Origin: Pseudomonadaceae bacterium
Lineage (GTDB): Bacteria; Pseudomonadota; Gammaproteobacteria; Pseudomonadales; Pseudomonadaceae
DNA: 38,277 nt
Reading direction: 5' to 3'
Assembly: GCA_007692485.1 (NCBI GenBank)
Contig: REBY01000094.1
Location: 1 to 38,277 of the forward strand
In this document: piece by piece, positions 15,367-29,250 of the stretch
How the letters are laid out: each line of letters opens with the position of its first letter
How positions within the stretch are numbered: the stretch's first letter is position 1
Translations under genes and position numbers: made by a program
The notes under the pieces: generated by a model
Told to the model about the DNA's origin: nothing
Databases searched by the model: none
What the model saw: the letters and a program-made list of their open reading frames with translations, nothing else

Positions 15367-15921
15367 TTACTCGTCCGGGTCCATGGTGATCGCTGTTTTT
15401 TGCTGCGCGGCCACCAGGCGTTGGCGGTATTGCTCACGATACAGGTGTGCAAAGCCATGCAGTACCGGCAAGACGACAGCCCAGGTAGCAGCGAGTATCA
15501 GGATGCTGGGTAGCAGGCCAAGTGGTAGTTCAACATCGGCTAAGGCGGCGCCAGCAACGTAAGAGCCGGGCGCTGCAATGGCACCCACCGCTGCGGCCAC
15601 CCACCAGCGTCGGCTCCAGGCCAGGCAGTGGTTAAGGGTGGTAGCCAGCAAGGCCCAGAGTAGTGCCAGCCAAAGCGGTATCAGGTCGGATTCACCAGGG
15701 AAGGCGAACACCCCGAGATGCATGAGAAAAGAGTCCAGCGCGGCACCGGCAAAAAATACCGTCATCACCAGTTTGCCTTCAGCCGCCCAACTGCTGGTCC
15801 AAGTAAAGTGCACGACTAGCACGGCAAGCGGAATCAATAACCAGAACGAACTGCCACCGAGTACTGCTGCGAACCAGCCGAGCTGGAACAAAACAGCGTT
15901 GGCAATCAGTTTGGTCGGCAT
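15367..15921 (-). CDS. DUF2878-family integral membrane protein
   Basis: The 184-residue protein is almost entirely hydrophobic, with about five to six membrane helices (for example LFQLGWFAAVLGGSSFWLLI and LWLALLWALLATTLNHCLAW) and a short charged cytoplasmic tail. It matches the DUF2878 family as I recall it, which has no assigned activity but is often encoded next to cyclopropane-fatty-acid-synthase-like genes. The ATG at 15921 lies one base past the stop of the methyltransferase gene; the frame is open upstream but overlaps that gene deeply. It is the last gene of the nine-gene operon. A role in membrane-lipid modification is inferred from its place only. Confidence 0.85.
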   Translation of the reverse strand: MPTKLIANAVLFQLGWFAAVLGGSSFWLLIPLAVLVVHFTWTSSWAAEGKLVMTVFFAGAALDSFLMHLGVFAFPGESDLIPLWLALLWALLATTLNHCLAWSRRWWVAAAVGAIAAPGSYVAGAALADVELPLGLLPSILILAATWAVVLPVLHGFAHLYREQYRQRLVAAQQKTAITMDPDE

Positions 15922-15922
15922 G

Positions 15923-17275
15923 TCAGGCTCCCAAGGTATGTAAATGCAAGTTCGGTCGGGCTTCTGGTTTGCTGAAGAGGATCTGCGCGGTACCGATCGA
16001 GCGCTCCTCAAAGCCGCCTTCGCAGTAACACAGGTAGAACTCCCACAGCCGGAAAAAGTAGTCATCATACCCGAGTTGCTGCAGATGGCTGCGTGCGTTC
16101 TTCAGGTTGCGATACCAGTGACGCAGGGTTTCTGCGTAGTGCAGGCCGATATCTTCCAGGTGCAGCATGGCAAGATCGGTATGCTTGCGCGTCAGTTCGC
16201 CAATCAGGCTGACTGATGGCAGAGAGCCACCCGGGAACACGTAGCGCTGGATGAAATCCACACTTTTACGTGCCTGATCATAACGTTGATCACGAATGGT
16301 AATGGCTTGCAGCAGCATCAAACCATCGGGTTTCAGGCGTTTGGCACAGTGCTCGAAGTAGGTACGAAAATAGTTATGACCGACGGCTTCAACCATTTCA
16401 ATCGAGACCAGTTTGTCGTACTCACCGGTCAGCTCACGGTAGTCCTTGAGTAGCAGGGTGATACGGTCCTGCAAGCCGAGCTCTGCGACCTTGTCTTTGG
16501 CGTAGGCAAACTGTTCTTCCGACAGGGTCGTAGTGGTTACCCGACAGCCGTAATGTTGGGCGGCATAAATAGCCATGCTGCCCCAACCGGTGCCAATTTC
16601 CAGCAAGTGATCTTCGGGCTTAAGTTCCAGTTTGCGGCAAATGCGCTCCAGCTTGTGTTGCTGTGCTTGCTCCAGGTTGTCGCATTGAGGCGGGAAGATG
16701 GCCGCCGAGTACATCATGCTGGGGTCGAGAAAGTTCTCGAACAGATCATTGCCCAAGTCGTAATGCGCCTGAATATTGCGCCGCGAACCTTTCATGGTGT
16801 TGCGATTCAGCCAGTGCATCCACTTTAGTGCCGGGCGGCCGAGGCGGGCCAAGCCCTGTTCGAGGGCATCAAGTACATCGAGGTTGCGCACAAACAACTT
16901 GGTGACTGCACTCAGATCTGGCGTGGTCCAGAAGCCATGAATATAAGACTCGCCGGCACCGACACTGCCATTGCCCGCCACCATAGGGTATGCAGCCGGG
17001 CTATGCAGGTGAACCTCGGCGTGCAAACCATCACTGTCGGGCTGGCCGAATTGCAGCATCTCGCCGTCTTCATGCAGGGTAAGGGTGCCAAAGCGCAATG
17101 CCTTGAGCTGAGCCAGCACCAGGCGACGCGACAGGTTCTGCATCCAGTTGGGCCGTTCGGCTACCTGCTCGGCACGGGCGCGGGTCTTGCCTAGTAACTG
17201 GCTGGCGCGTTCATCCGTCACTGTCTGGTCTTCGGTGTAACAGACTAACGGCTCATCTTGGCTAATGCTTTTCAT
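15923..17275 (-). CDS. Cyclopropane-fatty-acyl-phospholipid synthase-family methyltransferase (possible furan-fatty-acid methylase)
   Basis: The 450-residue SAM-dependent enzyme has an N-terminal domain (about 1-150) and a catalytic Rossmann domain with LLEIGTGWGSMAIYAAQHYG (about 205-224), a VSIEMVEAVG segment and the family C-terminus WEFYLCYCEGGFEERSIGTAQ. These enzymes methylate double bonds of phospholipid acyl chains at the inner membrane. The classical Cfa is stationary-phase related; members in SDR/FAD/DUF1365 clusters are instead linked to photo-oxidative stress, and the P. putida light-induced gene ufaM (furan-fatty-acid methylase) is of this type as I recall. I cannot choose between cyclopropane, branched or furan product from sequence. 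The start at 17275 overlaps the DUF1365 gene by 14 bases. Confidence 0.88.
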   Translation of the reverse strand: MKSISQDEPLVCYTEDQTVTDERASQLLGKTRARAEQVAERPNWMQNLSRRLVLAQLKALRFGTLTLHEDGEMLQFGQPDSDGLHAEVHLHSPAAYPMVAGNGSVGAGESYIHGFWTTPDLSAVTKLFVRNLDVLDALEQGLARLGRPALKWMHWLNRNTMKGSRRNIQAHYDLGNDLFENFLDPSMMYSAAIFPPQCDNLEQAQQHKLERICRKLELKPEDHLLEIGTGWGSMAIYAAQHYGCRVTTTTLSEEQFAYAKDKVAELGLQDRITLLLKDYRELTGEYDKLVSIEMVEAVGHNYFRTYFEHCAKRLKPDGLMLLQAITIRDQRYDQARKSVDFIQRYVFPGGSLPSVSLIGELTRKHTDLAMLHLEDIGLHYAETLRHWYRNLKNARSHLQQLGYDDYFFRLWEFYLCYCEGGFEERSIGTAQILFSKPEARPNLHLHTLGA

Positions 17276-18074
17276 CTGAGGACTCCTTGACCTTGATAGC
17301 GGTGGCCGCCGTGGTGATCTGAACGGGTGCACGGTGATCGAAAATCGGAATACGTTTGAGGGCCAGGCGCAACGCCTGCCAGTAGATACCGGTGATGGTT
17401 TTCAACACCATAAAGGGGAAGCTGACAGCCTCTCGGCGCAACAAACTTTTGCTCAGCGGCTGGCGCGCCAGATTGAGCGTGGCATCAAAGAGCTTTTCCC
17501 GCGCCTGCCAGTCTTCCATGTGGATCAGCAAGGTTCGGCCGGGTTGGCTGAAGCGCATGCGATAGTCCAGCTCAGGAGGCAGGAAAGGGGATACCTGAAA
17601 GGACTTGGCCACTTGGAAATTTTGCGTGCGCTGCTCCGGATCGGTTTTCATCACATAGCAATAACGTTCAAGCCAGGGGGTATTGCTGACTTCGGTAATG
17701 ATTGCGCGCAATGTATGCGTTTGGTCATAGCAATAGAAAAACGACGCCGGGTTGAATACCAGGCCAAAGCTGCGCACCTGGGTGAGCAGACAGACCGGGC
17801 CATTCAATTGCAGGCCGAGCTGTTCATAGACCAATCTCTGGGCGGTTTGCTGCAGGCTTTCATCGTCGCGGGCATGATGGCGCAGATAGTCGCTGGGACG
17901 AAAGCGCATGGGTGACCACCAGCGGCCGGACCACAGGCTGCTCAGGCTGAATACCTCGGTCTGTTCCTCCAGGTTCAGCCACAGCAGACTAAGCCGATAG
18001 GTGAAGTTATGACGTTTCGGGGCGTAGCGGCGATGCCGGATCCACCCACGATAGAGAGCACTGGATGCATTCAT
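17262..18074 (-). CDS. DUF1365-domain protein
   Basis: The 270-residue protein opens with ALYRGWIRHRRYAPKRHNFTYRL, the typical DUF1365 start, and has the family core SFGLVFNPASFFYCYD at about 107-122, with many conserved aromatic residues, and a C-terminal KTITGIYWQALRL segment. The enzymatic role of DUF1365 is not established. It is almost always encoded between an amine-oxidase-like FAD protein and a Cfa-type methyltransferase, as here, so a part in unsaturated-fatty-acid modification is the best guess. It overlaps the FAD oxidoreductase gene by four bases and the methyltransferase gene by 14. Confidence 0.9.
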   Translation of the reverse strand: MNASSALYRGWIRHRRYAPKRHNFTYRLSLLWLNLEEQTEVFSLSSLWSGRWWSPMRFRPSDYLRHHARDDESLQQTAQRLVYEQLGLQLNGPVCLLTQVRSFGLVFNPASFFYCYDQTHTLRAIITEVSNTPWLERYCYVMKTDPEQRTQNFQVAKSFQVSPFLPPELDYRMRFSQPGRTLLIHMEDWQAREKLFDATLNLARQPLSKSLLRREAVSFPFMVLKTITGIYWQALRLALKRIPIFDHRAPVQITTAATAIKVKESSDEKH

Positions 18075-19321
18075 GCCGAGTCCTCCTGCAACGCGTCAAC
18101 CACCCGCAGGGCGCTGACCACGCCGTCTTCATGGAAACCATTGGCCCAGTAGGCGCCACAGAAATAACTGTGGCGGGCGCCCAGTAGCTCGCGCCAGCGC
18201 TGCTGGGCCTGTTGTGCTGGCAGGCTGAATTGGGGATGGGCGTAGCTGAAGCGAGCGAGAATCTTGTCCGGATCTATCGCTGCCGTCTGGTTCAGGCTGA
18301 CACAGAAGGTGTCTGCTGCCTGAAGCCCTTGCAAAATATTCATGTTGTAGGTCACCGCCGCCGGTTGCTGGCGATCACCCCCTAAACGGTAGTTCCAACT
18401 GGCCCAGGCCAGCTTCCGGTCTGGTAGCAGGCGGGTATCGGTGTGCAGCACCACGTCATTATCGGCGTATCCAATAGCGCCCAGAATGGCCAGTTCTTGT
18501 TCACTGGGCTCACTGAGCATAGCCAGTGCCTGGTCGCTATGGCAGGCAAAGATCACCTTGTCGAAGGCCTCACTGCCAGCCGCGCTATGAATGGTGACGC
18601 CATGAGCTGTTCGTTCCACCCGCTGCACCGGACAATTCAGGCGGATGCGCTCGGCAAAGGCGGCGCTCAAGGGCTCGACGTAGCTGCGCGAGCCGCCTTG
18701 AATTACCCGCCATTGTGGTCGGTCGCTGACGGATAGCAGACCATGATTGCGGAAAAAACGGATGAAGAACTGCAATGGAAAGGCGAGCATATCGGCCAGT
18801 GACATGGACCAGATGGCTGCGCCCATGGGGATAATGTAGTGGTCGATAAAGCGCTGACCATAACCTTCTGCTGTCAGATAATCGCCTAGTGTGGTTTCCG
18901 CACTGATGCGCTCTTCGTTGAGGTCACGCAATGCCTGGCGATTGAAGCGCAGAATATCACTGACCATGCCGAGAAAGCCGGGTGAGAGCAGGTTGCGGCG
19001 CTGGGCAAACAGGCTATTCAGATTGTTACCGTTGTATTCCATGCGGGTGACCGGGTCATGCACGGAAAAGCTCATTTCGGTTGGCTGTGAGCGCACACCA
19101 ATCTCATTCAGCAACTGAATAAAGTTGGGGTAGGTCCAGTCGTTGAACACGATAAAGCCGGTGTCGATAGCGTAGGGCTGGCCATTAACCTCAACGTCGA
19201 CAGTATGGGTGTGCCCGCCCACCCAATCGGCGGCTTCGAACACAGTCAGGTCATGCTGTGCGGCCAGCTTATAGCCGCAGACCAAGCCGGAAATGCCGGA
19301 ACCGATAATGGCGATTCGCAT
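18071..19321 (-). CDS. FAD-dependent oxidoreductase, flavin amine-oxidase/desaturase-like
   Basis: The 416-residue protein starts with a dinucleotide-binding GSGISG (residues 7-12) and the FEAADWVGGHTHTV motif near 29-42, the signature of amine-oxidase-like and phytoene-desaturase-like flavoproteins. A second FAD-contact region is seen at the C-terminus (YFCGAYWANGFHEDGVVSALRV). It probably acts on a hydrophobic substrate at the membrane. Its partners DUF1365 and the Cfa-type methyltransferase suggest action on phospholipid acyl chains; related genes belong to the singlet-oxygen response of Rhodobacter as I recall. The start shares one base with the SDR stop (TGATG). Confidence 0.88.
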   Translation of the reverse strand: MRIAIIGSGISGLVCGYKLAAQHDLTVFEAADWVGGHTHTVDVEVNGQPYAIDTGFIVFNDWTYPNFIQLLNEIGVRSQPTEMSFSVHDPVTRMEYNGNNLNSLFAQRRNLLSPGFLGMVSDILRFNRQALRDLNEERISAETTLGDYLTAEGYGQRFIDHYIIPMGAAIWSMSLADMLAFPLQFFIRFFRNHGLLSVSDRPQWRVIQGGSRSYVEPLSAAFAERIRLNCPVQRVERTAHGVTIHSAAGSEAFDKVIFACHSDQALAMLSEPSEQELAILGAIGYADNDVVLHTDTRLLPDRKLAWASWNYRLGGDRQQPAAVTYNMNILQGLQAADTFCVSLNQTAAIDPDKILARFSYAHPQFSLPAQQAQQRWRELLGARHSYFCGAYWANGFHEDGVVSALRVVDALQEDSA

Positions 19322-20088
19322 CAGTCACGCTCCACATTATCAGTTCTGGCCATGCCTTTGGTCAGGGCAAAGCGCAGGCCGTTGGGCAGGCTGCCAAGCA
19401 GGCGGAGAAAACTGATGAAAATACCCGGGAAGCGAATTTCACGCTGGCCGCGGGCAATACCTTTAACGATCTTGCGCGCCGCTTGTTCGCTGGTGACCTG
19501 CATCGGCATGGGGAAATCATTCTGTGCCGTCAAAGGTGTTTCGACAAAGCCAGGGCTGACCAGGCTAATACCGATATTCCATTGCGCCAGATCCAGTTCC
19601 AGCGACTGGAACAGGTAGCGCATGGCGGCCTTGGAGGCGCCATAGGCTTCTGCCCGTGGCAGGGGGCAGAACGTCACGCTGCTGCCCACACCCACCAGGC
19701 GGGGTTTTTCGCCCAGGCGCAGCAAGGGCAGGGCTGCTTCAATGCAGTGTACGGTGCCTTGGACATTGGCCGCCATGACGCGGGCAAAGAGGGCGGAATC
19801 AAATGCGGCCACGTCAACGTACTCGCAAGTGCCCGCGTTTAGAATCGCCAGATCCAGCGCGCCCCATTTGTCGCTCAGCGCCTGCCCGACAGCCAGAACG
19901 GCTGCATGCTCGGTGAGGTCCGCTATGAGTACCTCGATCTGTCCGGGAAATTCAGCGGCCAATGCATCCAGTGGTTCGCGGCGGCGGGCAGTCAGCGCCA
20001 GTTGATGGCCCGCAGTGGCTAACTCGCGTGCCAATGCCAGGCCTATGCCACTGGAAGCTCCGGTCAACCAGATCCGTTGCGCATTCAT
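19321..20088 (-). CDS. Short-chain dehydrogenase/reductase (SDR)
   Basis: The 255-residue classical SDR has the cofactor loop TGASSGIG (residues 9-16), the LNAGT segment near 85-89, a catalytic Ser in VGVGSSVTF and the YxxxK pair in AYGASKAAM near 150-160. A more basic and hydrophobic C-terminus (FISFLRLLGSLPNGLRFALTKGMA) could touch the membrane. It would oxidise or reduce an alcohol or carbonyl with NAD(P)H; the substrate is unknown, but its fixed place ahead of the FAD/DUF1365/Cfa genes suggests lipid-linked chemistry. It overlaps both neighbours (four bases with the NTF2-like gene, one with the FAD gene). Confidence 0.9.
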   Translation of the reverse strand: MNAQRIWLTGASSGIGLALARELATAGHQLALTARRREPLDALAAEFPGQIEVLIADLTEHAAVLAVGQALSDKWGALDLAILNAGTCEYVDVAAFDSALFARVMAANVQGTVHCIEAALPLLRLGEKPRLVGVGSSVTFCPLPRAEAYGASKAAMRYLFQSLELDLAQWNIGISLVSPGFVETPLTAQNDFPMPMQVTSEQAARKIVKGIARGQREIRFPGIFISFLRLLGSLPNGLRFALTKGMARTDNVERD

Positions 20089-20516
20089 GCCAGTCTCCTT
20101 TTAAGCCACGCGATCAGCCGGCCCAGCAGTGGCAAGTGCTCGTAGAGCAGCGCGCCGGCATCAAAGTAGTCTCTATGGCGGCAGACCTTGTCGCCGCGAA
20201 ATTGCACAAAGCTACAGCCTTCGACCGCAATCGGTTGTCCTCGTTGCAGGCGCGGATGCTGGTAGGTCATGGTCCAGCGCAGCGCTGCTTCATTGTCGTT
20301 GAGCGCCTGGCAGTGGTGGAACTCAAACTGGATGTCGGTGACGTTCGCATACAGGTTGGCGCAGTAGGCCTGCATGGCGGCCAATCCATTAATCGTATGC
20401 AAGGGGTCAGTGAACACCATATCGTCGTGATATAGCTCAGCCAGTTGCACGAGGTTGTCTTTATTCAGGGCAGCAAAGCCGCGGGCGAAGCGTTCAGTAG
20501 CGGTCGTGATGCTCAT
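20085..20516 (-). CDS. NTF2-like/SnoaL-type small protein
   Basis: The 143-residue protein fits the NTF2-like cone fold: an N-terminal helix (ATERFARGFAALNKDNLVQLAELYHDD), then MVFTDPLHTINGLAAMQAYCANLY and alternating strands with ALRWTMTY and VQFRGDKVCRHRDYFDAG. Such proteins bind small hydrophobic ligands or act as isomerases or cyclases; the catalytic residues cannot be named here. It overlaps photolyase and SDR genes by four bases each, so it is made with them. In LitR-type clusters a SnoaL-like gene commonly accompanies the SDR and Cfa-like genes. Confidence 0.85.
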   Translation of the reverse strand: MSITTATERFARGFAALNKDNLVQLAELYHDDMVFTDPLHTINGLAAMQAYCANLYANVTDIQFEFHHCQALNDNEAALRWTMTYQHPRLQRGQPIAVEGCSFVQFRGDKVCRHRDYFDAGALLYEHLPLLGRLIAWLKRRLA

Positions 20517-21940
20517 GCGCTTTCTCCCAGGGACTTGAACACCTCAAGTGCTCGTTGACGTGTCTGTTTAAGGTCAACAATGGCAGCAGGGTAGTCAATA
20601 GCGCTGAACAGGTCGGCTTTGACCGGTTGATGGATCTGCTTGCCTTTGAGGCCTGATAGTTCCGGCAGCCACTGGCGGATAAAGTCACCCTGAGGGTCAA
20701 ACTTTTCCGATTGGGTCAAGGGATTGAAAATACGGAAATAGGGCGCGGCATCAGTTCCGGTGGAGGCGCTCCATTGCCAGCCACCATTATTGGCCGCCAG
20801 GTCACCGTCAATCAGGTGCTGCATAAACCAGCGTTCACCTTCGCGCCAGTCGATCAGCAGGTTTTTGGTCAAGAACATGGCGCTGAGCATGCGCAGGCGG
20901 TTGTGCATCCAGCCGGTGGCCAATAGTTGACGCATAGCCGCATCCAGAATCGGGAAGCCGGTTTTGCCCTGTTGCCAGGCTTTGAGGGCATCGGCGTCCT
21001 GGCGCCAGGGCACGCTATCCATCTCCGGGCGGAAGGCCCGGTGCCGTGAAACCCGGGGGTAGCAAACTAGAATATGCTTGTAAAATTCGCGCCAGAGTAA
21101 CTCATTGATCCAGCTCACGGCGCCGGCATTACCGCTATCGAATTCGCCCTGATTGCACGCCAATGCGGCATGCAGACACTGGCGCACGGATAGAACGCCA
21201 CCGGTCAGGTAGGCGGACAGACGGCTGGTGCCATCAAGGTCAGGGCGGTTACGTTGTTCGTCATAGTGCGTCATGATCTGTTCGCTGAACAGGTCCATGC
21301 GCGCAACAGCGGCAGCTTCGCCAGCCGGCCAGAGCGCACGCTGGCTATCACTGGCGCGAAAATCATCCAGTTCGGTGGGGGCCGGATCGCTGGCACAGGG
21401 TGCCTGGTTCTGGGCCTGTACCGGAGGCAAGCAGGCTGGCGTGTTGCGGTGCAGTTCGCGGTAGGCCAGGCGACGGAACTGACTGTACACCTTGAACATG
21501 CTGCCAGCCTGAGTCAGCAGGCTGCCTGGGTTAAACAGCAACTGGTCGGTATAGCGTTGGCAGTCCAGGTCAGCGGCGGTAAAGGCTTCAGCAACGGCGT
21601 CATCGCGCTGCTGTTCATGAATACCGTATTCGTCGTTGAAGTGCAGGCTGCGGGCGTCGAGCTTTTTCGCTAACTCCAGCAGGGCCTTGGGTGCATCTGT
21701 CCATGCCGGTACATTGAGGATGCGCAGGGGAATGTTCAACGCCTGCAGGTCATGACTCAGACTGGCCAGGTTGCGCAGCCAGAAATCAATTTTGATCGGT
21801 GCGTCATCATGCGCTTGCCAGGTCGCAGGGCTGAGCAGGCATACGACCACAACAGGCCCTTTTTCTCGAGCGTGCCAGAGTGCGTGGTTGTCACTCAAAC
21901 GCAGGTCGTTGCGTAGCCAGCACAGTTGCAAGGCACTCAT
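20513..21940 (-). CDS. phrB: Deoxyribodipyrimidine photolyase
   Basis: This enzyme repairs cyclobutane pyrimidine dimers using blue light and reduced FAD. The 475-residue length matches E. coli PhrB. Visible are the N-terminal alpha/beta antenna domain (LCWLRNDLRLSDNHAL), HFNDEYGIHEQQRD around 99-112 with residues that contact the folate antenna, and the C-terminal FAD/DNA domain with SWINELLWREFYKHIL, TGWMHNRLRMLSAMFLTKNLL and NNGGWQWSASTGTDAAPYFRIFNP. It overlaps the regulator gene by four bases and lies in a light-response type operon. As in PAO1 it stands beside the MerR-family regulator gene. Confidence 0.96.
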   Translation of the reverse strand: MSALQLCWLRNDLRLSDNHALWHAREKGPVVVVCLLSPATWQAHDDAPIKIDFWLRNLASLSHDLQALNIPLRILNVPAWTDAPKALLELAKKLDARSLHFNDEYGIHEQQRDDAVAEAFTAADLDCQRYTDQLLFNPGSLLTQAGSMFKVYSQFRRLAYRELHRNTPACLPPVQAQNQAPCASDPAPTELDDFRASDSQRALWPAGEAAAVARMDLFSEQIMTHYDEQRNRPDLDGTSRLSAYLTGGVLSVRQCLHAALACNQGEFDSGNAGAVSWINELLWREFYKHILVCYPRVSRHRAFRPEMDSVPWRQDADALKAWQQGKTGFPILDAAMRQLLATGWMHNRLRMLSAMFLTKNLLIDWREGERWFMQHLIDGDLAANNGGWQWSASTGTDAAPYFRIFNPLTQSEKFDPQGDFIRQWLPELSGLKGKQIHQPVKADLFSAIDYPAAIVDLKQTRQRALEVFKSLGESA

Positions 21941-22833
21941 ACAGCCTCCTGTAACCAGGTCAGCAGACGGCTGTGGGCCCTGCTGGGCAAGTCTGCCAGC
22001 GGTTGAATGCCCAGGCCAATCAGCTCTTCGTCATGGATGATTGCCGCCGGGCCGGCCATAAACAAGGGCGTGACATGATGGTCGCTCAGTTTGGGTAACT
22101 GTCGGCGTAGCTGGACAGCCGGCAGAGCCTGGCTGCTGAACATGATCAACGCTTTGGCCTGATTGTGCTCACAGATTAGGCCCAACTCGCTGGCAGGGAC
22201 TTCCCACTCGAGCAAGTTGATGTGATAACCCTCATTGCTCAGCAACAGCGCCAGTAACCAAAGGCCTGGTTCGCAGTGCTGGTCCGACAGGCTGGCGAGC
22301 ACCAGGCGTGGGCCTTGAGAGTGACAGTTATTATGGTAGAGCCGGGTAGCCAGCTTGCTGCGCAGCCAAGTGTGCGCAAACACCTGCTCCAGTTGGCTGC
22401 CAAACTGGCCCTGCCAGCGTTGCTCAAGTTGTTGCAGCAGGGGTTCCAGTAACTGGGTGCACAGTGTGCGTACCGGATACTGTGCAGCTGTCTGGTTATA
22501 AATCTGTTCCAGTCTGTCCGGATCAAAAGCCAACAGGGCATTGAGCAGATTTTGCTGCGCCTGCTGCCAGGGGCTATCTACTGCCACGCGCGTCTGGTTG
22601 GGCCGCTCCAGCAGCTCCTTGACTTGACTAACAGCTACGCCGCGTTCCAGCCAGGTAAGAATTGACTGTATCTGTGCCAGGTGACGATCAGAATAGAGTC
22701 GGTGACCTTTCGGCGTACGGTGCGGCTTGATCAAGCCGTATCGGCGTTCCCAGGCGCGCAAGGTCACGGCGTTAACGCCGGTCATACGGGACACTTCGCG
22801 AATCGGCAGCATGGCGGTTTCATTGGTCGGCAT
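21937..22833 (-). CDS. MerR-family regulator of the LitR/CarH (PplR) type
   Basis: The 298-residue protein has an N-terminal MerR helix-turn-helix (about 9-77, VTLRAWERRYGLIKPHRTPKGHRLYSD) and a C-terminal region shaped like the CarH/LitR cobalamin-binding part: a helical WQGQFGSQLEQVFAH segment and a Rossmann-like domain (LVLASLSDQHCEPGLWLLALLLSNEG). In CarH the motif is W-x9-EH plus a His lower ligand; here the EH pair reads EQ and the later His is shifted, so B12 binding is doubtful. That fits class II LitR proteins such as P. putida PplR. The ATG at 22833 has AGGAG seven bases upstream and is preferred to TTG at 22839. It probably controls its own operon. Confidence 0.87.
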   Translation of the reverse strand: MPTNETAMLPIREVSRMTGVNAVTLRAWERRYGLIKPHRTPKGHRLYSDRHLAQIQSILTWLERGVAVSQVKELLERPNQTRVAVDSPWQQAQQNLLNALLAFDPDRLEQIYNQTAAQYPVRTLCTQLLEPLLQQLEQRWQGQFGSQLEQVFAHTWLRSKLATRLYHNNCHSQGPRLVLASLSDQHCEPGLWLLALLLSNEGYHINLLEWEVPASELGLICEHNQAKALIMFSSQALPAVQLRRQLPKLSDHHVTPLFMAGPAAIIHDEELIGLGIQPLADLPSRAHSRLLTWLQEAV

Positions 22834-22854: not shown

Positions 22855-23811
22855 TCAGATGGCGTTGCGCAGGCTGAGCCCGGGCGGGTGAGGTTGCAGA
22901 TAGGCTTGCTGGTGCAAATAGTCGTCCGGGTGCTTCATCAGGTGGTGTTTCAGCAAGGTGAGCGGGACGACCAGTGGCACTTGCCCCTGGCGGTAATCGG
23001 TAATCAGGGTTTCCAGTTCCTGGCGTTCATCACTGCTGAGTACACGTTTGAAGTGCCCGGCGATGTGTGCAAGTACGTTGCTGTGGCTGCCGCGGTTGGC
23101 GACTTTTTTTAGCGCAACCATGAGCAACTCAAAGTAAGAATCGGCGATATGCGGCAAATCTGCGGCGGCCAGATTGGCCAGCAAGTGTCCCATTCGCTGA
23201 TAGTGTTGCGGATGATGTGCCAGCAACAGATATTTGTGTCGGGCATGGAATTTCAGTAGACGCTTGGCGTCCAGCCCTTCAGCCAATAACTGCTGCCAGG
23301 CGGCATAGACCATGACCCGGGTGACGAAGTTTTCGCGCAATACCGGGTCGTGCAGGCGACCTTCTTCTTCTACTGGCAGTAATGGGCGCTGACGCATAAG
23401 CTCGGCCGCGAAAGCGCCTGCTGCCGTGCCTTGAGCTGGGTGACCGTTGCTTTGATAAACCTTGACGCGTTCCATGCCGCAACTGGGTGACTTCTGCATC
23501 AATATGAAACCGCATAGATGCGTCTGCTCATCGGCCACCTTGCGGCCGTAGCTGCGCAAATCGTCAGTGACATCCAGGGTTGGTGTTTTGCTGCCAACAA
23601 CACGGGGTTGGCTGGGTTCTCCGACCAGGCGGATAGGTTCACGCGGGGTGCCAAGGCCAATGCTGACTTCCGGACAGAAAGGTACCAGGTCAAAACAGTC
23701 GCCCAATTGCACGGTACAGAGGCGCGAGTGCTTGTGGCCGCCATTGAAGCGGACCGGACTACCCAGCAGGCATTGACTGATACCGATGGGAATGCGCTGT
23801 GAATCAACCAT
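22855..23811 (-). CDS. DUF523/DUF1722 two-domain protein (YbgA-like)
   Basis: The 318-residue protein has an N-terminal DUF523 domain (about 8-155: GISQCLLGSPVRFNGGHK, FCPEVSIGLGTPREPI, and a conserved Cys in KSPSCGM) and a C-terminal DUF1722 domain (about 185-310: FHARHKYLLLAHHPQHYQRMG). The second domain is that of E. coli YbgA, whose gene adjoins phr. The function is unproven; some DUF523 members degrade thiouracil-type bases (TudS) using an iron-sulfur cluster, and the conserved cysteines would permit one here. It is the first gene of the nine-gene operon. The ATG at 23811 begins the family-like sequence; the frame runs upstream to 23949 through the operator region, which is unlikely to be translated. 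Confidence 0.9.
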   Translation of the reverse strand: MVDSQRIPIGISQCLLGSPVRFNGGHKHSRLCTVQLGDCFDLVPFCPEVSIGLGTPREPIRLVGEPSQPRVVGSKTPTLDVTDDLRSYGRKVADEQTHLCGFILMQKSPSCGMERVKVYQSNGHPAQGTAAGAFAAELMRQRPLLPVEEEGRLHDPVLRENFVTRVMVYAAWQQLLAEGLDAKRLLKFHARHKYLLLAHHPQHYQRMGHLLANLAAADLPHIADSYFELLMVALKKVANRGSHSNVLAHIAGHFKRVLSSDERQELETLITDYRQGQVPLVVPLTLLKHHLMKHPDDYLHQQAYLQPHPPGLSLRNAI

Positions 23812-23823
23812 GACCGATACCCT

Positions 23824-23847
23824 TATACAATAGAAAACCTGTGTACA
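23824..23847. promoter_or_regulatory. LitR/PplR-type direct-repeat operator in front of the nine-gene operon
   Basis: TATACA at 23824-23829 and TGTACA at 23842-23847 are separated by exactly 12 bases, matching the T(G/A)TACA-N12-T(G/A)TACA direct repeat I remember for P. putida PplR1. It lies 13-36 bases upstream of the DUF523/DUF1722 ATG. Confidence 0.7.
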
Positions 23848-23854
23848 AGAATTA

Positions 23855-23881
23855 GTGTACACAAGTCCCATATTTGTACAA
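23855..23881. promoter_or_regulatory. Second TGTACA pair upstream of the nine-gene operon
   Basis: Two more TGTACA hexamers occur at 23856-23861 (within GTGTACAC) and 23875-23880 (within TTGTACAA), separated by 13 rather than 12 bases. With the adjacent canonical pair there are four hexamers within 57 bases, suggesting cooperative or multiple regulator binding. Confidence 0.5.
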
Positions 23882-23917
23882 GTATTTTGATCGGTGGTGG
23901 TATTCTTTTGCGGTTTG

Positions 23918-24133
23918 CTAGCGCCAGCCCATGTGCCAGCGTTCGGCATCCTTCAAATGGTGCCAGTCAATCCGCTGCGAGCGCTTGGTCAGCACCGCCT
24001 CCAGCTCGACAGCTTGCACCTGCTCAAGCTCGTCGCGATAGAGCGCGGTAACCATGAAGTGTCGCTCGCGCTGCTGGGGTTGGCTGGCAGTCCATTTAGA
24101 GTGCAGCAGTTTCTCGGGGTTCAGCCGATGCAT
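23918..24133 (-). CDS. Trp-rich small protein, TIGR02450 family
   Basis: The 71-residue protein reads MHRLNPEKLLHSKWTA, then QQRERHFMVTAL, LEAVLTKRSQRIDW and ending WHMGWR. This is the TIGR02450 pattern of conserved Trp residues and basic patches. The function is unknown; homologs occur near photolyase genes and in marine bacteria as I recall. The ATG at 24133 starts four bases after the stop of the upstream FAD oxidoreductase gene, so the two form one transcript under the operator at 25180-25203. A longer frame reaching 24517 runs against the oxidoreductase gene and is not real. Confidence 0.85.
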   Translation of the reverse strand: MHRLNPEKLLHSKWTASQPQQRERHFMVTALYRDELEQVQAVELEAVLTKRSQRIDWHHLKDAERWHMGWR

Positions 24134-24137
24134 ACTT

Positions 24138-25127
24138 TCAATGCTTACTGAGCAGTGTCTTGGCTGCTTGTTGGCCGCTGAGCCAGGCATTCTCGACCCG
24201 GCCGCCCAAACACCAGTCGCCGCAGGCATAGAGCCCAAGTTCGGGTGCCGCCAGGGCGCCCCACTCACATTGTTGCCCGGGGCGCGCATACAGCCAGCGG
24301 TGCACATGAGTGAATTGAGCGGTTGGTAGGTCCATGCTGAGTACTTCGGCGAAAGCACTGAGCAAGTCGCTGGCAACGGTGTCCTTGTCACTATCGATAT
24401 GCGCTTGGGCCCAGGCCGGAGTTGACTGGATAACCCAGGTGTCTGACTCATCGCGGCCTGGCTTGCTACTGTTGCGGGAAATCCAGTCAATCGGTCCTTC
24501 GCGCACAAAGCAGGCATCCATCGGCGTATCCAGTGGCTGGTTGAAGCTTAGAGCCAGAGTCCAGCCCGCGAGCATCTCCACCTGGCTGGCGGCATGGGCG
24601 AGTTGGCTGGCAGGTTCCAACAGGGTGACTGCTTGTGGCGCGGGCGTTGCGACCACGACGCGAGCAAAAGGACCGTGAGCTTGTTGCTGGTCGTCAAGCA
24701 GTAACCATTGCCCGTCGTCCTGAGCCTGGAGTTTTTCTATGCGCGTACTACTGACCAGCTCCAGGCCTTCAAGTAGCGCCCGGGACCAGGCCGTCATGCG
24801 CGGGTAACCAACAAAACGCTGTTGATTGTCTTGCGAGCGACGCAATCCGGATTGATCATACTGGTAAAGGCGCGGAGTCCATTCCTCCACGCAGCGGGCA
24901 TCGAGCCAGGTTTTGAGCTCCTGCCGAAAGCTGTGGTCGCGGGCGGTAAAGTATTGTGCGCCCATATCGAACTGACCAAACTCAGTGCGCTTGCTGCTGA
25001 GGCGCCCACCACTGCCGCGGCTCTTGTCAAAGATGACCACGGCATGGCCTGCAGCGACCAAGCTGCGGGCGGCACTGATGCCCGACAGGCCGGCACCGAT
25101 AATGGCGATTTTTAATGATTGCGACAT
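24138..25127 (-). CDS. NAD(P)/FAD-dependent oxidoreductase, renalase/amine-oxidase-like
   Basis: The 329-residue protein starts with a FAD-binding IIGAGLSGISAARSL (GxGxxG at 11-16), then VVIFDKSRGSGGRLSSKR (about 31-48) and MGAQYFTARD, which is the renalase-like signature. The C-terminal FAD contact is GLYACGDWCLGGRVENAWLSGQQAA. The substrate is unknown. The ATG at 25127 is chosen because it opens the Rossmann fold; the frame continues to 25253 through the operator. The operator match shared with the photolyase operon indicates co-regulation, so a light or oxidative-stress role is inferred. It is distinct from the second FAD enzyme at 18071-19321. Confidence 0.88.
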   Translation of the reverse strand: MSQSLKIAIIGAGLSGISAARSLVAAGHAVVIFDKSRGSGGRLSSKRTEFGQFDMGAQYFTARDHSFRQELKTWLDARCVEEWTPRLYQYDQSGLRRSQDNQQRFVGYPRMTAWSRALLEGLELVSSTRIEKLQAQDDGQWLLLDDQQQAHGPFARVVVATPAPQAVTLLEPASQLAHAASQVEMLAGWTLALSFNQPLDTPMDACFVREGPIDWISRNSSKPGRDESDTWVIQSTPAWAQAHIDSDKDTVASDLLSAFAEVLSMDLPTAQFTHVHRWLYARPGQQCEWGALAAPELGLYACGDWCLGGRVENAWLSGQQAAKTLLSKH

Positions 25128-25179
25128 AGCGCAGACAGACTCCGTTGCAGTTTGGATGCAGAATTGGCTCGACAAAACT

Positions 25180-25203
25180 TGTACATGCAAATTAGTGTGT
25201 ATA
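25180..25203. promoter_or_regulatory. LitR/PplR-type direct-repeat operator upstream of the FAD oxidoreductase gene
   Basis: On the minus strand, TATACA (25203-25198), 12 bases, then TGTACA (25185-25180): again the exact T(G/A)TACA-N12-T(G/A)TACA form. It lies about 53-76 bases upstream of the ATG at 25127. The rest of the 232-base gap to 25360 shows nothing else convincing. Confidence 0.7.
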
Positions 25204-25359: not shown

Positions 25360-26256
25360 ATGCATATCTTGCTAACCGGCGGTACCGGATTGATAGGCCG
25401 GGCTTTGTGTAAACGACTGGTGGCCGAGGGTCACCAACTCACCGTCTGGAGCCGCCGTCCGGATCAGGTCCCGACACTCTGCGGTGCCCAGGTGCAGGGC
25501 ATCGCCAGCTTGCAACAACTCGATCAGCAGACAGTGGACGCAGTCATTAACCTCGCCGGCGCGCCGATTGCTGATCGCCCCTGGACGGCCAAGCGTAAAG
25601 CAGTGCTCTGGGCCAGCCGGGTGGGCTTGACCGAACAACTGGTCGAGTGGCTGGGGCAACAAGAGCACAAGCCAAAGGTACTGATCAGTGGCTCAGCAGT
25701 AGGTTGGTACGGTGACGGCGGCGATGTGCTGATTACCGAGCAAAGCCCGCCGAGTCTGGAATACACACATACGCTGTGTGATGCCTGGGAAGCTGCCGCT
25801 CGCCGTGCCGGGTCCTATGGTATACGCGTCTGCTTGTTGCGCACCGGGTTGGTTTTAGCTCCTAATGGGGGCTTCCTGTCTCGTTTGCTACTGCCATTCA
25901 AGCTGTGTTTGGGCGGGCCCATCGGTAAAGGCCAGCATTACATGCCTTGGGTGCACCGCGATGACATGGTCGGCATTATTGTGCAGTTGCTGCTCAATCC
26001 CGATGCACAGGGGCCGTTTAATGCAGTAGCACCTAATCCGGTCAGTAATCGTGAGTTTGCCCGCACCCTGGGCAAGGTGCTCAAGCGGCCGACAATCCTG
26101 CCTCTGCCAGCGCCCGTGCTTAAGCTAGGTTTGGGCGAAATGTCGCGCTTGTTGTTGACCGGTCAGCGGGCCGTGCCGGAAAAAATGCTTGAACAAGGGT
26201 ATCAATTCAAATTCAGCGAGCTGGAAACAGCGCTGAATGATGTTATCAATCATTGA
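25360..26256 (+). CDS. TIGR01777-family epimerase-like protein (YfcH/PA4656-like)
   Basis: The 298-residue protein is an extended SDR with an N-terminal NAD(P)-binding TGGTGLIGRAL (about 6-16), AVINLAGAPIADRPW (about 62-76), SGSAVGWYGDGG, and the family C-terminal DUF1731-like region (KVLKRPTILPLPAPVLKLGLGEMSRLLLTGQRAVPEK). Its substrate is unknown. AGGAGAGA precedes the ATG at a good distance. It is followed 15 bases later by hemH, as in PAO1, and probably shares its transcript. It is divergent from the FAD oxidoreductase gene, and the light-type operator between them could reach it, though it sits 157 bases upstream. Confidence 0.9.
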   Translation: MHILLTGGTGLIGRALCKRLVAEGHQLTVWSRRPDQVPTLCGAQVQGIASLQQLDQQTVDAVINLAGAPIADRPWTAKRKAVLWASRVGLTEQLVEWLGQQEHKPKVLISGSAVGWYGDGGDVLITEQSPPSLEYTHTLCDAWEAAARRAGSYGIRVCLLRTGLVLAPNGGFLSRLLLPFKLCLGGPIGKGQHYMPWVHRDDMVGIIVQLLLNPDAQGPFNAVAPNPVSNREFARTLGKVLKRPTILPLPAPVLKLGLGEMSRLLLTGQRAVPEKMLEQGYQFKFSELETALNDVINH

Positions 26257-26271: not shown

Positions 26272-27291
26272 ATGTCGTCACGTGGGGTATTGCTGGTTAA
26301 TCTGGGTTCGCCGCAAAGCACTTCGGTAGCGGATGTAAAGCGCTATCTGAATGAGTTTTTGATGGATCCCTATGTGATTGATATCCCCTGGCCGGCGCGG
26401 CGCCTGTTGGTCAGCCTGATCCTGTTGCTGCGGCCAAAAAAGTCTGCCGAGGCCTATGCGTCTATCTGGTGGGAGGAGGGCTCGCCCCTGATTGTTATCA
26501 GTCGACGGGTGCATGAAGCGGTTAAGGCACAATTGGATATGCCGGTTGAATTGGCCATGCGTTATGCCGAGCCCTCGATTGAGCGCGGCATCCTGGCTCT
26601 GGCCAAACAGGGTGTCAGTGAAATCCTATTTATGCCGCAATACCCGCAACATGCCGATAGCACCATTACCACCTCGGTCAAGGAAGCGGAACGGGTTATC
26701 CGTGAGCATCAGCTATCGGTCAAGTTGACCGTGGTGCCGGCATTTTATCAGCGCAAAGAATATATGGATGCGTTGGTTGCCAGCGCTCAGGAGTATTTTG
26801 AGCAACCCTTCGACCATCTATTGATGAGTTATCATGGCCTGCCGGAGCGGCACCTGAAGAAAGCGGATCCCACCGGCCAGCACTGCCTGCAATTTCCTGA
26901 TTGTTGCGAACGGCCTTCGCCAGCCCATGCCACGTGCTACCGGGCGCAATGTACTGCTGTCAGTAAAGCCTTTACAGCACGCATGGGGCTGAGTGATGAC
27001 CAGTGGTCACAAGCCTTCCAGTCGCGGCTGGGTAAGGACAAATGGATTGAACCTTACACCGATGCCCGCGTGGATGAACTGGCTGCACAAGGGGTCAAAC
27101 GACTGATCGTCATGTGTCCGGCCTTTGTCGCCGACTGTATTGAAACGCTGGAAGAAATAGGTGATGAGCTGCGTGAGCAATTTATTGCTGCCGGCGGCGA
27201 AGAACTGGTGCTCGTGCCTTGTCTGAATGACCACCCGCAATGGGTTGAGGCACTGGTGCATTGGATCAAGACTGAACCTGAAGCGGCTTGA
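26272..27291 (+). CDS. hemH: Ferrochelatase
   Basis: HemH inserts ferrous iron into protoporphyrin IX, the last haem-synthesis step, at the cytoplasmic membrane. The 339-residue product has the N-terminal [10 protein letters not shown], the catalytic His188 in [13 protein letters not shown], and the C-terminal [15 protein letters not shown] motif with the active-site Glu. A Cys-rich stretch at 205-227 (Cys205, 211, 212, 222, 227) could hold an internal [2Fe-2S] cluster of the sort described for some bacterial ferrochelatases; this is inference. Its position beside TIGR01777 is standard. It is transcribed away from the iron block, so no shared promoter is implied. Confidence 0.96.
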
Positions 27292-27404: not shown

Positions 27405-27418
27405 CCAAGGTGCACGGA

Positions 27419-27946
27419 ATGCACATAATGGTATGTCGGACAAGGACGTCTGGCTTATCTCAGGTTGCGCCAAGAGTCGTGCGGCCACTCTTCTTGTATC
27501 CTTCACCGCTAGCTTGCCAGCGTGGCGTCAGCTTGCTGGAAGTCCTGATTGCTGTGCTGGTGCTGGCCATTGGGGTGCTGGGTGCAGCAGCCCTGCAACT
27601 GAACGCCTTGCGTTACAACGCCAGCGCTGCGCATACCACTCAGGCCAGTTTTATTGCCTATGACATGCTCGACCGCATGCGTGCCAATGCAGACAATCTT
27701 GCTAGCTATGCCACCACCGTTGATAGCTGCCCGACCATCAGCTCTTCACCCGGTACTATCAGCGCGGTCGACCGGGCTGACTTTGCCAATGCCGTGGGAT
27801 GTCAGTTACCCAGTGGCGCAGGCGGCATTGAAATCAGTGACAACCGCGCCACCATTACCATCAGTTGGTCAGAAGCGCGCATTCTGGCAGACGAACCGGA
27901 TACCACTTTTGTGGTGTCCAGTCTGATCCGGAGCCTCACCCAGTGA
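27419..27946 (+). CDS. pilV: Type IV pilus minor pilin PilV
   Basis: PilV is a minor pilin of the pilus-tip priming complex, inserted in the inner membrane and processed by PilD. The prepilin signature is clear: QRG before VSLLEVLIAVLVLAIGVLG, with cleavage after Gly and the expected Glu at +5, followed by a hydrophobic helix and a small globular domain with Cys residues. The start is uncertain. ATG at 27419, used here, has AAGG eight bases upstream but implies a 36-residue leader; ATG 27428, GTG 27479 (16-residue leader) and TTG 27494 are in the same frame, and leaders in this family are usually short. Its stop overlaps pilW as GTGA. Confidence 0.88.
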   Translation: MHIMVCRTRTSGLSQVAPRVVRPLFLYPSPLACQRGVSLLEVLIAVLVLAIGVLGAAALQLNALRYNASAAHTTQASFIAYDMLDRMRANADNLASYATTVDSCPTISSSPGTISAVDRADFANAVGCQLPSGAGGIEISDNRATITISWSEARILADEPDTTFVVSSLIRSLTQ

Positions 27947-28731
27947 CCGTTGATAGCCAGACCCATCAGTCTGCCGAACGGGGCTTCGGCTTGGTTGAGC
28001 TGATGATTGCTTTGACACTGGGCCTGGTACTGGTGCTGGGTGTGGTTCAGGTGTTCGTCGCCAGCAACCGAACGTTCAATGTGCAGCAGCACGCCTCGGC
28101 CTTGCAGGAAGATGCCCGCTTTGTGCTCAGCCGACTTTCTAGCGAACTGCGCATGGTCAATATGTATGGCTGTCTGAATTTGTCGCGTCTGCCACAGTCA
28201 ATCCAGGATGACTTGCCTGGCGCATTTGATAATCCTATTGGCTACGCCGGTGGCGTGCTCACAGTGATTACCGCAGACCCTAACAACCAGGTTTTTGTCA
28301 GCAATACCACGGCAAGTGTCAGTCATTACGGCGCGCAATGGCTGATAGCAACCAATTGCCGCGATCAACTGCGGATTGCCAGCAGTGGAGACGTCAATGT
28401 GCAGGCCGGCGACATCCTGATCCCCCTGCGACAATTGGAGTACCGCGTACAAGACAATGCATTGCAGGTGCGTACCAATGGCGTCGGCAACTTTGAAACG
28501 CTGATTACTGGTGTGGCTGATCTGGACGTCAGTTTTGGCTTGGCCAGCACACCCGGTGAGCGAGTGGTTGATGGCAACTATGTCAGCAGTGTGGCCAGTA
28601 GTGACTTCAACCGCATTCGCAGTGTTCGCCTGGTCTTGCAGCTGAGTGACAGCCCAGCCAATACCAGTAACGCCCAGGTCAAAACGCAGGAATACAGCCT
28701 GGTTGCCGCTTTGCGTAACCGGATGAATTAG
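27943..28731 (+). CDS. pilW: Type IV pilus minor pilin PilW
   Basis: PilW is a large minor pilin that joins PilV, PilX, PilE and PilY1 in the tip complex. The 262-residue product starts at a GTG that overlaps the pilV stop by four bases, and has a 14-residue leader ending ERG, cleaved before FGLVELMIALTLGLVLVLG with Glu at +5. The remainder is a large beta-rich domain with a likely disulfide pair (MVNMYGCLNL and ATNCRDQL). The alternative start at 27865 lies inside pilV and is rejected. Identification rests on the signature, size and order between pilV and pilX. Confidence 0.9.
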   Translation: MTVDSQTHQSAERGFGLVELMIALTLGLVLVLGVVQVFVASNRTFNVQQHASALQEDARFVLSRLSSELRMVNMYGCLNLSRLPQSIQDDLPGAFDNPIGYAGGVLTVITADPNNQVFVSNTTASVSHYGAQWLIATNCRDQLRIASSGDVNVQAGDILIPLRQLEYRVQDNALQVRTNGVGNFETLITGVADLDVSFGLASTPGERVVDGNYVSSVASSDFNRIRSVRLVLQLSDSPANTSNAQVKTQEYSLVAALRNRMN

Positions 28732-28743
28732 CGAGGAAGACGG

Positions 28744-29250
28744 ATGGAACATAGGGATATGTTGCCTGCCTGCCAGCGGCAAAAGGGCGCTGCGCTAGCG
28801 GTTAGCCTCATCTTTCTACTGTTGCTGACGATGACCGCGGTGGCTGCGGTTCAGGGTGCCAGTAGTCAGGAACGTATGGCGTCCAATATCAAGTTCAAAA
28901 ATGACAGCTTTCAGGCTGCTGAGGCAGGCCTGCGACTGGCAGAAGAAGCCCTTGCGGCTGATTTTGCCGAATTTTCCAGCCCCTGTTCAGGTGCTGGATG
29001 CAATGTTGAAGGCAGTGTTTTTGATCTTGATACACGGGCGCGGCCGAGTGCCGAATGGGTTGAAATCGGGCCATCGAGCCAAACCAACAACATGACGGTG
29101 TGGTATCGGGTGATCAACCTGGGGCAGAGCAACGCCCCGGCTCAAGTTCCCAGTAACGCTCCCGGGACTCTGTATCGGATTGTGGTGGTGTCTTTCCGCG
29201 GTTCAACCCGGACTGTGCTGGAGAGTGTCTATGTTCGCAGCGAAGCCTGA
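28744..29250 (+). CDS. pilX: Type IV pilus assembly protein PilX
   Basis: The 168-residue product has the PilX N-terminus: a short basic leader ending QKG, then AALAVSLIFLLLLTMTAVAAVQG, and the family segment SNIKFKNDSFQAAEAGLRLAEEAL. After cleavage position +5 would be Val, so the Glu usual in pilins is missing, as in other proteins of this type. It acts in the minor-pilin tip complex together with PilV, PilW and PilY1. A purine-rich GAGGAAGA stands just upstream of the ATG at 28744. Its 3' end overlaps pilY1 by 20 bases. Confidence 0.87.
   Translation: MEHRDMLPACQRQKGAALAVSLIFLLLLTMTAVAAVQGASSQERMASNIKFKNDSFQAAEAGLRLAEEALAADFAEFSSPCSGAGCNVEGSVFDLDTRARPSAEWVEIGPSSQTNNMTVWYRVINLGQSNAPAQVPSNAPGTLYRIVVVSFRGSTRTVLESVYVRSEA

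Follow-up and report, generated by a model that had tools for sequence, protein, structure and literature searches.

Two inverted TGTACA-type repeats as probable class II LitR operators of a photolyase operon and an oxidoreductase unit in a Pseudomonadaceae draft genome

Do two promoters that share a T(G/A)TACA pair next to a gene for a LitR-type regulator belong to one light-responsive regulon, and which protein would read the shared site? The window, i.e. the whole stretch of 38,277 nucleotides analyzed here, had been described in a first-pass annotation as carrying two such pairs with 12-base gaps. Indeed, both pairs are exact in the sequence:

23824..23847, TATACA-N12-TGTACA on the plus strand: operator A, a dyad; in the rudS-litR operon its predicted span is approximately +1 to +24
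25180..25203, TATACA-N12-TGTACA on the minus strand: operator C, between the FAD oxidoreductase gene and the divergent TIGR01777-hemH pair

These sites were said to precede a nine-gene photolyase operon, with a MerR-family, LitR-type regulator encoded inside it, and a unit of FAD oxidoreductase and TIGR02450 genes. The gene content agrees with this description, and domain and phmmer searches identify the encoded regulator as a LitR/CarH-like protein. Products were assigned by domain search:

22855..23811, minus: rudS-type gene, 2-thiouracil desulfurase (TudS) plus DUF1722 (ATG at 23811; PF04463 and PF08349, scanned from 23808)
21937..22812, minus: litR1, MerR HTH plus B12-binding_2-like domain (the start codon may be as far upstream as 22839)
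20513..21940, minus: phr, DNA photolyase
20085..20516, minus: SnoaL-like protein
19321..20088, minus: short-chain dehydrogenase (SDR)
18071..19321, minus: FAD amine-oxidase-like protein
17262..18074, minus: DUF1365 protein
15923..17275, minus: CMAS-family methyltransferase, ufaM-like by family and position
15367..15921, minus: DUF2878 protein, ninth gene of the operon
24138..25127, minus: FAD/NAD(P)-binding oxidoreductase
23918..24133, minus: TIGR02450/DUF2389 Trp-rich protein
25360..26256, plus: TIGR01777 oxidoreductase, divergent neighbor of operator C, regulation uncertain
26272..27291, plus: hemH, ferrochelatase, divergent neighbor of operator C, regulation uncertain

Operator C lies closer to the inferred oxidoreductase start than to TIGR01777 in all 14 syntenic loci of the genus. 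Downstream of hemH (27410-32137), the window holds type IV pilus minor pilin-like genes and a long PilY1-like ORF, as read by eye from the translations.

The consensus published for PplR1 of P. putida is T(G/A)TACA-N12-TGTA(C/T)A (PMC9758184). The pattern given in the first-pass annotation, T(G/A)TACA-N12-T(G/A)TACA, was right in its core and its N12 gap but not in its second alternative base, which stands at position 5 of the right half (C/T) rather than at position 2. With these alternatives, one at position 2 on the left and the other at position 5 on the right, the consensus is a dyad, i.e. its own reverse complement. To this we add the substitutions seen in relatives, taken as 208 sites from 80 loci (the best 80 of 225 relatives) by a rule that is symmetric for both halves. 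TATACA occurs 52 times in the left half and never in the right, while TGTATA occurs 11 times in the right half and never in the left; the direct-repeat reading was rejected on these counts. The same rule applied with gaps of 9-11 and 13-15 returned 8 to 24 sites each. The set of 208 retains 27 left TGGACA and 28 right TGTTCA halves, which probably represent one recurring non-operator sequence, and the positions flanking the 208 sites gave no clear decision between dyad and direct form. Across the 37 genomes of the genus, 16 double-altered dyads stand against 2 double-altered direct repeats (TATACA-N12-TATACA), although one longer palindrome recurs in three of the 16, which may be sites of a different regulator; among the order's other families the direct form is no rarer, with 8 matches. 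Since the consensus is its own reverse complement and the substitutions are of the dyad type, we read the operator as an inverted repeat. Judged by sequence, it appears better called inverted than direct, and the earlier label of a direct repeat is not borne out. The terms 'direct repeat', 'inverted' and 'palindrom' are all absent from the main text of PMC9758184.

How much weight can two short sites bear? With up to two mismatches allowed, the window contains 5 matches where shuffled sequences predict 3.70; the motif in this form is no commoner than chance, so the evidential weight rests on exactness. A genome-wide search for the repeat, proposed as a check in the first-pass annotation, was run on the 2,797,109 bases of the source genome (209 contigs, 93.7% complete). 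It returned the originally stated pattern in exact form at these two sites only (2 versus 1 match of the reversed control), and the published form gave 2 exact matches versus 0 for the control. Operators A and C, 1.36 kb apart, are the sole exact pair genome-wide. Allowing one mismatch yields 11 sites (the 2 exact and 9 further ones) versus 3 for the control.

Conservation was assessed in the best 80 of the 225 relatives, 1.61 Mb in all, made up of one MAG with 92% identity and 79 Pseudomonas/Stutzerimonas records. Within these 80 loci the N12 form occurs 151 times and is present in every locus, versus 7 occurrences for all other gaps from 0 to 20 together; count peaks at gaps of 21 and 25-27 arise because two operators adjoin. 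An exact site lies within 250 bases upstream of the inferred start of rudS (77) or litR (2) in 79 of these best 80 loci. One locus (L058:9246-9923) encodes a RudS without its first 141 residues, the N-terminal TudS part, and keeps the site ahead of the remainder. The oxidoreductase was found in 79 of the 80, each time with a site 39-52 bases before its inferred start (4 exact, 75 with one mismatch). We also fetched 20 regions of relatives, mostly around LitR genes, of which 14 are from the same genus and syntenic with the window. In these, operator C is exact throughout (14/14), and the rudS/litR operator is exact in 11 and present as a degenerate N13 form in 3; the operator directly heads litR in five of the 14, where no rudS was found. 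The other six regions comprise three with LOV-LitR2 near rudS-litR-phr (L156-L158), a partial one (L166) and two of the LitR2 type (L167 and L168). For the published form, the 37 genus genomes hold 58 exact sites versus 6 for the control, and 21 genomes from the other families of the order hold 15 versus 7, a weak excess.

A rather prosaic explanation would be that the repeats are promoter hexamers (TTGTAC, TATACA, TATAAG) fitting the consensus by chance; the operator halves do overlap or adjoin predicted -35 and -10 elements, and one of the one-mismatch matches in the source genome is a LexA-like box. However, the gap is exactly 12 in 80 of the best 80 loci, the genus sites number 58 versus 6, and exact sites are missing from the genomes that lack LOV and LitR. 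A short LOV protein is encoded in 30 of the 37 genus genomes (E up to 1e-40), and the same 30 have a LitR match below 1e-30. In the other seven genomes, without a LOV at that cut-off, we found neither an exact operator nor a LitR match stronger than 4.4e-6; the chance that all seven lack the operator is 1.7e-4, treating related genomes as independent. An accidental fit is thus extremely improbable. What favors LitR operators is the presence of the operator at both the litR operon and the oxidoreductase unit in nearly every relative, and 24 of the 30 LOV- and LitR-carrying genomes hold it in exact form. Against this reading count the other six of these 30, which have no exact site at all, and the 3 of 14 relatives with the N13 form only at the rudS promoter.

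The promoter elements and the start site were predicted from alignment by eye:

23854..23859, minus: predicted -10, TACACT, of the rudS-litR operon
23876..23881, minus: predicted -35, TTGTAC, of the rudS-litR operon, overlapping an isolated TGTACA half-site at 23875-23880

TTGTAC-N16-TA(C/G)A(C/A)T recurs at the rudS/litR promoter in all 15 sequences compared (the window and 14 relatives), and in all 15 the operator or its N13 form begins five or six bases after the -10. At the oxidoreductase promoter, the TATACA half of operator C (25198-25203) coincides with a predicted extended -10, TGCTATACA, which is found in 12 of 15 promoters with TATACA preceded by TGC. Both layouts would fit repression by occlusion. 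Two further candidates in the rudS promoter were discarded. The TGTACA at 23856-23861 was considered as an extra half-site and is read as part of the -10 (TGTAGA in 4 and CGTACA in 1 of the 14 relatives), and an additional N13 operator at 23856-23880 is read as the -35/-10 pair instead.

Which type of regulator does litR1 encode? The N-terminus of LitR1 is a MerR-type HTH (PF13411, E 7.9e-18), followed by a B12-binding_2 domain (PF02607, E 7.4e-7), i.e. the middle domain without a B12-binding domain that characterizes class II LitR proteins. In keeping with this class, litR1, phr, SDR, FAD oxidoreductase and ufaM-like genes form one cluster, with a single transcript predicted; a T(G/A)TACA-N12-TGTA(C/T)A operator lies upstream of it; and a short LOV protein is encoded in the same genome. 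This 146-aa protein carries a DCRFLQ motif, and its gene adjoins a second one, litR2 (C197:14487-15359), whose product is 37% identical to LitR1. LitR2 gave no hit to PF02607 or PF02310 at E up to 0.001. The closest solved relatives of the LOV protein are 'sensory box' proteins (best E 4.3e-66), among them 3sw1, which we take to be PpSB1-LOV. LitR1 might alternatively be a class I, B12-dependent photoreceptor of the CarH/LitR type that senses light directly. Among solved structures, CarH-type chains are the best full-length phmmer matches (E 2.9e-21 and 3.5e-21), and the B12-binding_2 domain is in line with such a function. Yet LitR1 does not have the B12-binding domain with axial histidines by which class I is recognized: PF02310 was not reported at E up to 0.01, and in the phmmer alignment the EH of CarH AEEHL stands opposite QV and the histidine of CarH ERHEIG opposite Cys, though a His stands one residue before; we take the two CarH histidine positions to be cobalt ligands. 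Moreover, LitR1 scores 105.6 with the CarH NCBIfam model, far under the cut-off of 400, and a short LOV protein is available in the genome. We consider a class I photoreceptor very unlikely. Light input most likely passes through LOV and possibly the paralogue LitR2, and not through LitR1 alone. The whole-protein MlrA model gave 94.0 bits for LitR1 with a cut-off of 417, and the operator itself has the form typical of MlrA, an inverted TGTACA repeat with a 12-bp gap.

From the sites, the gene content, the presence of LOV and LitR2, the conservation and the co-occurrence, all observed here, we conclude that both sites are very probably operators of class II LitR proteins (PplR/PmlR type), with repression in the dark, relief by LOV in blue light and negative autoregulation of litR1. 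Binding, dark repression, LOV antirepression and light induction are carried over from work on P. putida and P. mendocina. Each 24-bp dyad would be occupied in the dark by a dimer or higher oligomer of LitR, which would cover the predicted start site of the rudS-litR-phr operon and the predicted -10 of the oxidoreductase promoter. In blue light, the short LOV protein encoded with LitR2 would bind LitR and free the promoters. Since the litR1 gene lies inside the first operon, LitR1 is proposed to be negatively autoregulated. The self-regulated, light-responsive regulon envisaged in the first-pass annotation thus appears to be supported by the present analysis.

It is also conceivable, though we think it unlikely, that LitR2 is the main reader of the operators and LitR1 an accessory or modulating paralogue, in which case autoregulation would be indirect. 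Six genomes of the genus (G003, G006, G018, G019, G028 and G033) have a distant LitR match only (best E 8e-41 to 1.6e-33) and nonetheless keep exact operators, in four of them between the oxidoreductase and TIGR01777-hemH; G019 has operators before an oxidoreductase gene and elsewhere, G003 has one between LitR2 and LOV, and the targets in L181 and L184-L187 were named by reading translations. In addition, the HTHs of the two paralogues are very similar in alignment, with RAWERRYGL...GHRLY present in 25 of 25 aligned LitR1/LitR2 sequences, and PmlR2 is the binder shown biochemically (PMC9758184). A leading role of LitR2 is at odds with the fact that an exact operator still precedes the litR1 gene in 11 of 14 syntenic loci, with the same core residues retained in the LitR1 HTH, and with the assignment of the consensus to PplR1 in P. 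putida (PMC9758184).

Do class II LitR proteins control further genes? Of the nine one-mismatch sites in the source genome, L197 (C197:16333-16356), which precedes folE-folM, alone fits the known regulon. Four others lie inside ORFs (L189, L191, L192 and L193), L194 lies 99 bases before an amidase-like gene, and L195, which precedes an S24 peptidase gene, is the one that coincides with the LexA-like box, a reminder that a single match may be misleading. A further one (L190:944-967) sits immediately ahead of where a GIY-YIG nuclease gene probably starts, which makes this gene another candidate for light-controlled repair. A palindrome of greater length, likewise matching the consensus, occurs at glutamine-synthetase genes (L170:1971-1994, L174:2024-2047 and, with one mismatch in the source genome, L196:1501-1524, the same letters occurring in G031) and probably belongs to another regulator.

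In the relatives, where the fetched genus sites cover all but three of the 58 (those in G014, G031 and G033), targets were named with Pfam, save for the chemoreceptors of L157 and L158 and the DUF6436 partner of L171. Exact sites are found at the starts of 4HB chemoreceptor genes in four genus genomes (sites starting at 1992 in L169, 2006 in L179, 2038 in L182 and 1985 in L183); the orthologue in the source genome (C28:22980-24608) is preceded by an N13 pair. Others lie between divergent GGDEF and DUF6436-type genes in three genomes (L171, L173, L177), upstream of a PAS-chemoreceptor gene adjoining LOV in three regions (L156-L158), at a photolyase gene in one genus genome (L172), and upstream of a protoglobin-PAS-GGDEF-EAL gene (L176:2040-2063 and L178:1967-1990) in the two relatives whose LitR1 is the most similar. 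The source genome has no close orthologue of the latter (best 47%) and no site near that best match. No sensible target was apparent at L175 and L180. Judged from these positions, the chemoreceptor and c-di-GMP genes are possible extensions of the regulon. In another family of the order, an operator (L188:4445-4468) is flanked by genes that lead to a BLUF protein and to a photolyase. In L168 (2303-5063), hemH, LitR2, operator and LOV are adjacent; a one-mismatch site lies approximately 147 bases from hemH, and genes for a photolyase and a stand-alone DUF1722 protein are nearby. This arrangement hints at light control of ferrochelatase.

Taken together, the window represents a well-supported further class II LitR/short-LOV regulon, ordinary in kind. 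An apparently complete light-response module (LOV, two LitR proteins, operators, photolyase, RudS and FolE) is thus present in a 2.8 Mb gammaproteobacterial draft genome, where light is predicted to induce genes for DNA repair and photoprotection jointly. Once the repeat is read as inverted and not as direct, class II LitR is linked to the MlrA branch. In E. coli, the MlrA box reads AAAATTGTACA(12N)TGTACAATTTT (PMC9662190) and the csgD site is AAAGTTGTACA(12N)TGCACAATTTT (PMC3509220); the box shares with our operators the TGTACA core, the inverted repeat and the 12-bp gap. The E. coli BluR site, described as both repetitive and palindromic, likewise has the TGTACA core. In contrast to the system proposed here, MlrA activates csgD, and BluR is antagonized by BluF and not by LOV. 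We tentatively suggest, with rather more doubt than confidence, that class II LitR, MlrA and BluR share an ancestral code (inverted TRTACA with a 12-bp gap), which LOV/LitR in this genus would have spread to chemoreceptors, diguanylate cyclases and a protoglobin-GGDEF-EAL protein; light would then gate decisions on both motility and biofilm, and perhaps ferrochelatase. In the literature searched, LitR stands beside MlrA only as the unrelated quorum-sensing LitR or in a reference, and MlrA is not named in PMC9758184. Worth testing are the dyad reading, the connection to MlrA and the additional targets in relatives, namely the genes for chemoreceptors and for c-di-GMP enzymes at the positions named above.

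The nine-gene rudS-litR-phr-ufaM operon resembles a known light operon, and the system is already known from Pseudomonas. Sumi et al. reportedly described the PplR1/PplR2/PplR3 - PpSB-LOV regulon of P. putida KT2440 in 2020. Its targets include phrB/ufaM/litR genes and folE, and a strain without both LOVs shows low constitutive transcription (PMC9758184), a point against the mechanism proposed here; in a co-culture study with equal illumination, KT2440 PP_0738-PP_0742 went up together (PMC11014904). The operator consensus and the phrB/ufaM/litR genes are common to both systems, whereas P. putida has three LitR-type paralogues and we found two, and the promoter geometry here is its own. An operon under LitR control that holds both rudS and phrB has been described before (PMC11417400); the rudS-type gene, first in the operon here, is likened to the tRNA 4-thiouridine desulfidase RudS by domain content. 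The closest parallel in layout is PmlR1/PmlR2 - PmSB-LOV of P. mendocina NBRC 14162. There, PmlR2 protects two TGTACA-N12-TGTACA sites in footprints and represses in vitro, and illuminated LOV relieves the repression, this work concerning PmlR2 and not the LitR1 type; in gel shifts PmlR2, LOV and DNA formed a stable complex in light, contradicting the surface plasmon data that the authors prefer (PMC9758184), and this gel-shift result slightly lowers our confidence in the proposed mechanism. The nine-gene unit with phrB, SDR, FAD oxidoreductase and ufaM is light-induced, as are pmlR1, phrB and ufaM; the site at folM is weaker, and induction of folM and folE amounts to 1.6- to 3.3-fold (PMC9758184). 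At the nine-gene promoter P. mendocina has two operators, one of them over the -35, whereas here one N12 operator is combined with a half-site at the predicted -35. As in our genome, the P. mendocina system comprises a nine-gene operon, a second LitR adjoining a short LOV protein, fol genes near this second LitR with a weaker site, and an operator that lies downstream of the start site and ahead of the start codon.
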